Source: Gordonibacter massiliensis (ex Traore et al. 2017) (GTDB lineage Bacteria > Actinomycetota > Coriobacteriia > Coriobacteriales > Eggerthellaceae). From it: a DNA stretch of 64,000 bases. The stretch is taken from contig LT827128.1 in the NCBI GenBank assembly GCA_900170005.1, positions 1,980,168 to 2,044,167 on the forward strand, in the 5' to 3' direction. Shown piece by piece: positions 57,238 to 58,794 of the stretch. Made by a program: the position numbers and the translations under genes. Under the pieces are notes generated by a model, which did not search any database, was not told where the DNA came from, and saw only the letters and a list, made by a program, of their open reading frames with translations. The number at the start of each line of letters is the position of its first letter. Position 1 is the first letter of the stretch.

Positions 57238-58794
57238 CTACAACGCGGCCTTGAGGGCGGCCACCGAGTACAGGCTGCCGAAGGCGCACACCAGGCCCTC
57301 TGGACCGGCGAGCTCGCGGGCGCGCGCGACGGCGTCGGCCATGTCGCGCGCGACGTAGGGGTTCACGCACGCCGAGCAGCCCAACAGATCCTGGCCGGTC
57401 CAACGGATGGCCCGCGCCAGCTTGTCGGCCGGCAGCGCGCGCGGGTTGTCCGGAGCCACGGCGACGAAGCCGCTGCCGTGCGGCAGGATGGCCTCGAGCA
57501 TGACCGGGTAGTCCTTGTCCTCCAACACGCCCACGATGAACACCGGCTTGACGCCGGGAAACACGTCGTCAAGCGACTCTGCGAGCGCGCGAGCTCCCTG
57601 CGGGTTGTGCCCTCCGTCCACCACCACGGTGGGACGGCCCTCGCCCGCGTCGACGATCTCGAACCTGCCGGGCCATTGCGCCCGCTCCACCCCGGCCCGC
57701 TCCGCCTCGTCGGAAATGCTCCAGCCGCGTTCGCGCAGCACGTTCACCGTCTCGAGGGCGAGCGCCGCGTTCGCCGGCTGGTAGCTTCCCAGCAACCGCG
57801 TGCGGTACGCGCGGCCCCGATAGGAGAACGGGCGCGCGAGCGTGGCGGATCGCAGGCCGTCGTCCCCAACAGGGGTGGGCGGCTCCCGCTTTTCGCCATC
57901 CCGAGCGGAGGTGCGCAGCGCCGGAGCCGAAGGATCCCCGGTGGCGACGGCCGGAACAGCTTTCCGTTGGCACCGCGCGGGATCCTTCGACTCCGCTTCG
58001 CTCCGCTCAGGATGACAGGGATCAAGCGTTTCGGCGCTCCGCTCAGGATGACAGGGGTCAAGCGTTTCGGCGGTCTGCTCGGGATGGCAGGATCGCCATT
58101 CCACCGGATCCACCTCCAATTGGGAGAAGTCCGGCACGACGAGCGTCGCGCCGTGGGCCTGCGCGGCCTTCTCGACCACGGCCATAGCCTCGGGGTCCTG
58201 CGGCCACGACACCACGGGCGCGCCGTCCTTCACGATGCCCGCCTTCTCGCCCGCGATAGCGGCGAGCGTGTTGCCCAGCAGCTTCGTGTGGTCCAACCCT
58301 ATGCGCGCTATGACGGTCGCCTCGGGCGCGTCGATGATGTTCGTGGAGTCCAAGCGGCCACCCAGCCCCACCTCCAACACCACGATGTCGCAGGCGCAAC
58401 GCGCGAAATGCTCCAGCGCCACGGCGGTCATGAGCTCGAACTCGGTAGAATGATCGCCGGTTTCAGCCGCCATGGCCTCGGCATGCTCGCGCACGGCCAG
58501 CGTCGCCGCCATGAGCTCGTCGGTCGAGATGTTGCGGCCGTCCACGCGGATGCGCTCCTCGAACGCCTCGATAAAGGGGCTCGTGAACAGCCCGGTTCGA
58601 TAGCCCGCCGCCTGAAGGATGGACGCGAGGTAGGCGCACGTCGACCCCTTGCCGTTCGTGCCCGCCACGTGCACGAACTTGAGGCGGTCCTGCGGCCGCC
58701 CCATACGCTCGAGCAACTCGCGGATGCGGTCGAGCCCCAGCCGCGACTCCTGCCACCGGGGCTCGTTGATGTACGCGATAGGGTCGAATGCCAT
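57238..58794 (-). CDS. folC: Folylpolyglutamate synthase/dihydrofolate synthase with an in-frame repeat insertion
   Basis: This 518-residue enzyme adds glutamates to folates. The P-loop is VAGTNGKGSTCAYL (residues 43-56) and the substrate loop VLEVGLGGRLDSTN, with IARIGLDHTKLLG and VDGGHNPQGARALAE in the C-terminal ligase domain. The start MAFDPIAYINEP at 58794 follows GAAGGTGGG. Residues 236-314 contain CHPEQTAETLDP, CHPERSAETLDP and CHPERSEAESKDP, then a basic Pro-rich stretch. These are translated intergenic repeats, making the protein about 80-90 residues longer than typical FolC, at a surface loop between the two domains. Confidence 0.95.
   Translation of the reverse strand: MAFDPIAYINEPRWQESRLGLDRIRELLERMGRPQDRLKFVHVAGTNGKGSTCAYLASILQAAGYRTGLFTSPFIEAFEERIRVDGRNISTDELMAATLAVREHAEAMAAETGDHSTEFELMTAVALEHFARCACDIVVLEVGLGGRLDSTNIIDAPEATVIARIGLDHTKLLGNTLAAIAGEKAGIVKDGAPVVSWPQDPEAMAVVEKAAQAHGATLVVPDFSQLEVDPVEWRSCHPEQTAETLDPCHPERSAETLDPCHPERSEAESKDPARCQRKAVPAVATGDPSAPALRTSARDGEKREPPTPVGDDGLRSATLARPFSYRGRAYRTRLLGSYQPANAALALETVNVLRERGWSISDEAERAGVERAQWPGRFEIVDAGEGRPTVVVDGGHNPQGARALAESLDDVFPGVKPVFIVGVLEDKDYPVMLEAILPHGSGFVAVAPDNPRALPADKLARAIRWTGQDLLGCSACVNPYVARDMADAVARARELAGPEGLVCAFGSLYSVAALKAAL
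57892..58088. repeat. REP-type palindromic repeats expanded inside folC
   Basis: Units of the dispersed CATCCTGAGCGGAGC ... GAAGGATCC palindrome are visible. One is at 57892-57935, one inverted at 57979-58014, and two partial copies follow at 58025-58050 and 58068-58088. The partial copies and the inverted unit are spaced by 36 bp, a multiple of three, so the folC frame stays open. Each yields a CHPE(R/Q)-type peptide on the minus strand. Confidence 0.8.

Follow-up and report, generated by a model that had tools for sequence, protein, structure and literature searches.

How does a gene for a core enzyme come to carry a cluster of palindromic repeats and still be read from end to end? The question is raised by folC of Gordonibacter massiliensis, which lies in the 64-kb stretch of DNA analysed here (the window), and for which a sequence-only reading had proposed REP-type repeats within the coding sequence, kept in frame. 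The presence of the repeats was borne out: they occupy 57894-58089, the frame is open through them, and the motif CATCCTGAGCGGAGC is found with up to two mismatches at 203 places in the genome, as against 11 for the reversed control. The gene product matches the NCBIfam FolC model TIGR01499 with 361.3 bits, over the curated cut-off of 162.65. Only one of the nine own-genome matches to the protein spans it, and the other eight are confined to parts of query residues 227-308, the insert region, so that folC is single-copy and it is the insert that is repetitive. The source genome is in one contig and is 99.81% complete.

The anatomy of the insert (Table 1) differs from that first described, which had four units at a 12-residue period. 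There are three direct units, read along the minus strand as unit 1, unit 2 and unit 3, with CHPE starting at FolC residues 236, 248 and 260, an exact period of 12 residues with the frame open. After a loop comes the fourth unit, which is inverted, pairs with unit 3 and reads in the folC frame as ...ALRTSARDG.... The hairpin formed by this opposed pair has a z-score of -6.65, with none of 200 shuffled sequences equally stable. A profile of the family found a single copy in the window, the core of this hairpin (57897-58017). The sole Rfam match of the hairpin, at 57911-58009, is to the microRNA precursor family RF03674 MIR5387 (E 0.0038); its 27 bits are far below the gathering score, which is 69, and it was rejected as a classification. 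The MIR5387 family perhaps contains bacterial sequence.

Table 1. Features of folC and its insert; positions are those of the window.
Feature	Positions	Strand	Details
folC coding sequence	57238-58794	minus	ATG start, 518 aa + stop
Direct unit 1	58054-58089	minus	36 nt, CHPEQTAETLDP
Direct unit 2	58018-58053	minus	36 nt, CHPERSAETLDP
Direct unit 3, left arm of hairpin	57979-58017	minus	39 nt, CHPERSEAESKDP
Inverted unit 4, right arm of hairpin	57894-57939	plus	within folC part of ...GDPSAPALRTSARDG...
Hairpin (opposed pair, units 3 and 4)	57894-58017	minus	124 nt, -82.4 kcal/mol
Region with no collinear match in Gordonibacter sp. 28C	~57850-58099	minus	net +228 nt, limits approximate

Of the relatives found, Gordonibacter sp. 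28C (G003 among the genomes compared, in which G. massiliensis itself is G000) is the nearest. Its folC has a short site at this point, with flanks that are 95% and 88% identical at the protein level. The stretch of FolC left unaligned in 28C is 82 residues (query 232-313) and the net gain is 76 residues, less than the lengthening by 80-90 residues claimed earlier. FolC of G001, G002 and G004 also has short gaps here, the C-terminal match of G002 being partial. In an alignment of 20 FolC proteins from Eggerthellaceae the CHPE insert is missing from all, and at the insertion point several of them carry unrelated linkers of greater length, which suggests that the point is a tolerant loop. This comparison with relatives was one that the sequence-only reading had itself proposed, and the short site in 28C supports an insertion into folC with the frame kept. 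We infer a gain in the lineage of G. massiliensis rather than a loss in 28C. The insert has no cleanly duplicated junction by which the insertion could be dated or its point fixed.

The insert had been placed between the two domains of the protein, but that position was not upheld. In an AlphaFold2 model built from a 36-sequence alignment (mean pLDDT 87.1, pTM 0.86), it connects neighbouring beta strands (E231-233 and E317-324); alignment to the FPGS of L. casei puts the insert stretch in the gap between residues 216 and 254, and the Mur_ligase_C match begins only at residue 375. The insert thus belongs to the N-terminal domain, where it falls in a loop. The best 16 structural matches of the model are all FolC enzymes (Z 45.1 to 39.9). 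Residues 240-288 and 309-313 have pLDDT below 50, and the insert is predicted to be a disordered loop.

The repeats in folC belong to a dispersed family. A 260-nt query around the insert has at least 81 matches in its own genome with E no higher than 0.01, 40 of 187 candidates having been scored; many of them span query positions 84-204, which is the hairpin, and some start about one 36-nt unit earlier. A profile run over the window and 111 own-genome loci (0.40 Mb including overlaps) gave 94 distinct sites, which are part of all copies, the loci having been chosen for resemblance to the motif. The units share a common frame, GTCATCCTGAGCG...GAAGGATC, that flanks a variable inner stem in which self-complementarity is kept, for example GGCC/GGCC, GCGCC/GGCGC, GGCGGC/GCCGCC and GCAGAC/GTCTGC. 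Over 123 units with 79 distinct sequences, the longest perfect stem has a mean of 4.24 bp, against 3.17 bp after shuffling, a pattern that could reflect either function or a conversion process. Units start with TGTC in 120 of 125 cases (CGTC in 4 and TATC in 1), and the ends of the element are terminal inverted repeats, TGTCATCC...GGATGACA. At 13 own-genome loci the hairpin sits inside a larger palindrome whose inverted ends are longer, approximately TCCGCTGTTAAACCAGCATTGACAT...ATGTCAATGCTGGTTTAACAGCGGA; the outermost bases of this larger element vary by copy (CCGCTG or CTCTATG), and its two ends still match each other.

By a simple codon-usage gene caller, 67 of the 94 sites are intergenic, 16 lie inside genes and 11 overlap genes in part. 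The intergenic sites are between tandem genes in 42 cases, convergent genes in 19 and divergent genes in 5, with one at a locus edge; the excess of convergent over divergent pairs has a p value of 0.007. Five of the 16 intragenic copies (in folC, purL, pcrA and twice in hypF) were checked against relatives, and every one of these is in frame and free of stops. Another nine were left out of the count, several seeming to be in upstream or doubtful reading frames, and of the remaining two one is between two ABC family matches and the other behind an activase match.

The filled and empty sites differ from gene to gene. In the case of purL, the junction insert is present in G000 and G001 and absent from G002, G003 and G004, and G003 has a copy at a second site that is empty in G000. 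The two hypF inserts are common to G000 and G003, though of different sizes, and are lacking in G001; G002 was left out of this alignment, its matches being in pieces with one internal TGA. The pcrA insert is found in G000 only and is absent from the other four genomes compared. Palindromic repeats in a gene with the frame preserved had been called rare, which does not agree with these further in-frame hosts, nor with the reports for other bacteria in PMC3733652. Two other observations may be recorded here. The hypF gene of G004 has long unrelated linkers at the insert positions of G000 and G003, though G004 has no near-match to the motif. In G. massiliensis two near-identical paralogs of a TorD-like chaperone have CHPE repeats in matching positions preceding the TorD match, which would fit an insert older than the duplication that gave rise to them.

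We can now return to the question of why the frame stays open. In full-length intergenic copies (n=53) a mean of 46% of the six frames are free of stops, so that tolerance of the insert and purifying selection on the host gene can explain the kept frame; if one insertion in three has a suitable length, some 15% of those that fall in genes should be readable. The explanation that we favour is that a dispersed REP-like palindromic element, consisting of an opposed pair of hairpin units of about 40 nt, entered folC within the lineage of G. massiliensis at a loop of the N-terminal domain, the folC copy carrying two extra tandem left-arm units. The GC-rich palindrome being poor in stops, a fair share of insertions of suitable length would be readable and the remainder would be removed by selection on the host gene. 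Translation, which presumably takes place, would then make of the insert a loop of about 80 residues, disordered for the most part and close to neutral for the enzyme. The repeat family, the short site in relatives, the open frame, the other in-frame hosts and the predicted disorder are the documented basis for this explanation, and we consider it probable as a whole that a REP-like element inserted in folC is read through as a near-neutral disordered loop. The earlier proposal that such elements can create protein sequence is sustained in so far as new coding sequence has come from the element, and as coding sequence only.

Neutrality is a part of this explanation that is open to challenge, as a very stable hairpin could slow or alter expression of folC. 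It may be that the insert is kept for a function, with the hairpin in the mRNA tuning folC expression or the loop adding an interaction. The stability of the hairpin would fit, as would inner stems that vary with complementarity kept and the preference of intergenic copies for positions downstream of genes. However no other Gordonibacter genome searched has the folC insert, the host proteins are unrelated, the sites differ among species and the loop is predicted to be disordered, and we regard a retained function as unlikely. Ribosomes are known to bypass a segment of message in phage T4 gene 60 and at the byp elements of yeast mitochondria, and a strong hairpin within a coding region invites the suggestion that the folC hairpin is skipped in the same way to give a protein without the insert. 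Skipping would not require an insert to be in frame and stop-free, as all the copies checked against relatives are; there were no split genes among five close tandem pairs tested, although the gene caller could miss copies that are out of frame. We therefore give bypassing very little weight. Misassembly or a broken allele has still less to commend it: repeats are prone to misassembly and the judgement here is made from the assembly itself, but the genome is in one contig, folC is intact and single, and similar inserts are present in other genes and in sister genomes. Insertion followed by read-through as a near-neutral loop thus remains our preferred explanation.

With regard to how the family spreads, the obvious candidate for REP-like units in opposed pairs is a RAYT (Y1 HUH) transposase, either now lost here or acting from elsewhere. 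Y1_Tnp genes are present in 40 of 79 genomes of the family Eggerthellaceae, including the repeat-rich G003, G007 and G062. However there is no Y1_Tnp match in the G. massiliensis genome, by a search that was positive in 5 of 14 known genomes used as a control, and a Y1 gene is found in 3 of 9 repeat-rich genomes and in 37 of the remaining 70 (p 0.31 by Fisher's test). The surroundings of Y1 genes in G003, G007, G062 and G004, scanned in six stretches, yielded a single unit, 3.7 kb off, in G007, and the unit tags are unlike those of published REPs. A role for a RAYT is thus doubtful, though it has a little more in its favour than the alternatives for folC discussed above. The RAYT-like genes of G007 and G062, coding for 316 and about 256 residues, have on their flanks short palindromes (approximately GGGGACTGTCCCC in G007 and GAGACAAAGGGACACTCCTAATGTCTC in G062) that are not of the folC-repeat family.

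No target-site duplication of 2-12 bp was significantly above shuffled pairs over 38 full-length copies, a test in which tandem units may blur some element ends. The sequence GCGATCC, which flanks the folC insert and was considered as a target-site duplication, was dropped on this result. The idea that the flanks are inversely symmetrical outside the TGTCA ends was also dropped, one of 12 positions having p of about 0.01 and the others none. The family presumably spreads by a copying mechanism, and the Y1_Tnp search brought up no mobiliser for it.

The distribution of the motif is patchy. At least one near-match is present in 34 of the 79 Eggerthellaceae genomes and at least 18 in nine of them; within Gordonibacter there are 149 in G. 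massiliensis, 95 in G003 and none in G004. In two further pairs of species, each pair from one genus (G021/G062 and G047/G080), one species has 272 or 110 near-matches and the other none, which indicates that the family expands or is lost quickly. The unit pattern was found in 9 of 296 genomes of the phylum, control columns giving none. It is possible, though we would put it no higher than tentative, that the REP-like family of some Eggerthellaceae is distinct in its TGTC end and its hypervariable, self-complementary inner stems, that it is moved by machinery that is neither RAYT nor target-duplicating, and that the family has repeatedly written disordered loops into core enzymes of Gordonibacter (for example in purL at two sites in three species).

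It remains to compare the family with known palindromic elements. PMC3733652 describes REPs as having a GTAG or CGTC tag and high copy number, mostly in opposed pairs, and as sitting between tandem or convergent genes; it also covers REPs inside genes that add amino acids and are proposed to be tolerated in linkers or loops, with a UvrD/Rep helicase among the hosts. In the light of that account the folC family is like REPs in its short palindromic units, high copy, opposed pairs, mostly intergenic location and occasional intragenic copies that add amino acids, and even in having a helicase host, here PcrA. The original REP-type label therefore holds for structure and fails on the tag and on Y1_Tnp: the units have a TGTC end and neither a GTAG nor a CGTC tag at the unit end, and, unlike the GTAG families, there is no linked RAYT, with no Y1_Tnp in the own genome and no flanking units at the six Y1 loci of sister genomes. 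A variable inner stem with complementarity kept is a further difference from REPs.

Another close parallel by description is with the Rickettsia palindromic elements (RPE; PMC10969869 and PMC2229807), which are hairpins of about 100-150 bp, both intergenic and in frame within unrelated conserved genes, for which end duplications are not established. One host, a Rickettsia guanylate kinase, is active with the RPE insert in place, though its affinity for substrate is altered (PMC2229807). The folC family is similarly an in-frame hairpin element in conserved genes (folC, hypF, purL and pcrA), but it is in another phylum and a GC-rich genome, and the likeness is one of description. MITEs, described for example in Coxiella (PMC5896051), are also small, dispersed, non-coding by themselves and bounded by terminal inverted repeats, but the folC family differs in showing no target-site duplication of 2-12 bp over the 38 full-length copies. 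No related insertion sequence was identified, by a transposase search for Y1_Tnp only. For the GTAG/CGTC superfamilies and for MITEs a defining feature was in each case looked for and not found, and the family is therefore placed outside both. We found no description of it by motif, peptide or genus in a literature search covering few subscription journals; the motif CATCCTGAGCG gave animal studies only, judging by titles, longer motifs and the encoded peptides gave no paper, and none of the titles listed under the genus names was relevant. The family is thus a newly seen case within a known broad kind, that of protein-coding palindromic repeats.

The finding means that a REP-like family is abundant in a genome that gives no RAYT-type match, and that there is a gut genus outside Rickettsia whose sister species have the same core enzymes with and without inserts. 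The two states can thus be compared side by side, to learn whether selfish palindromes within genes do harm, make no difference or supply protein sequence, and there is a second natural system for asking how such palindromes add to proteins.
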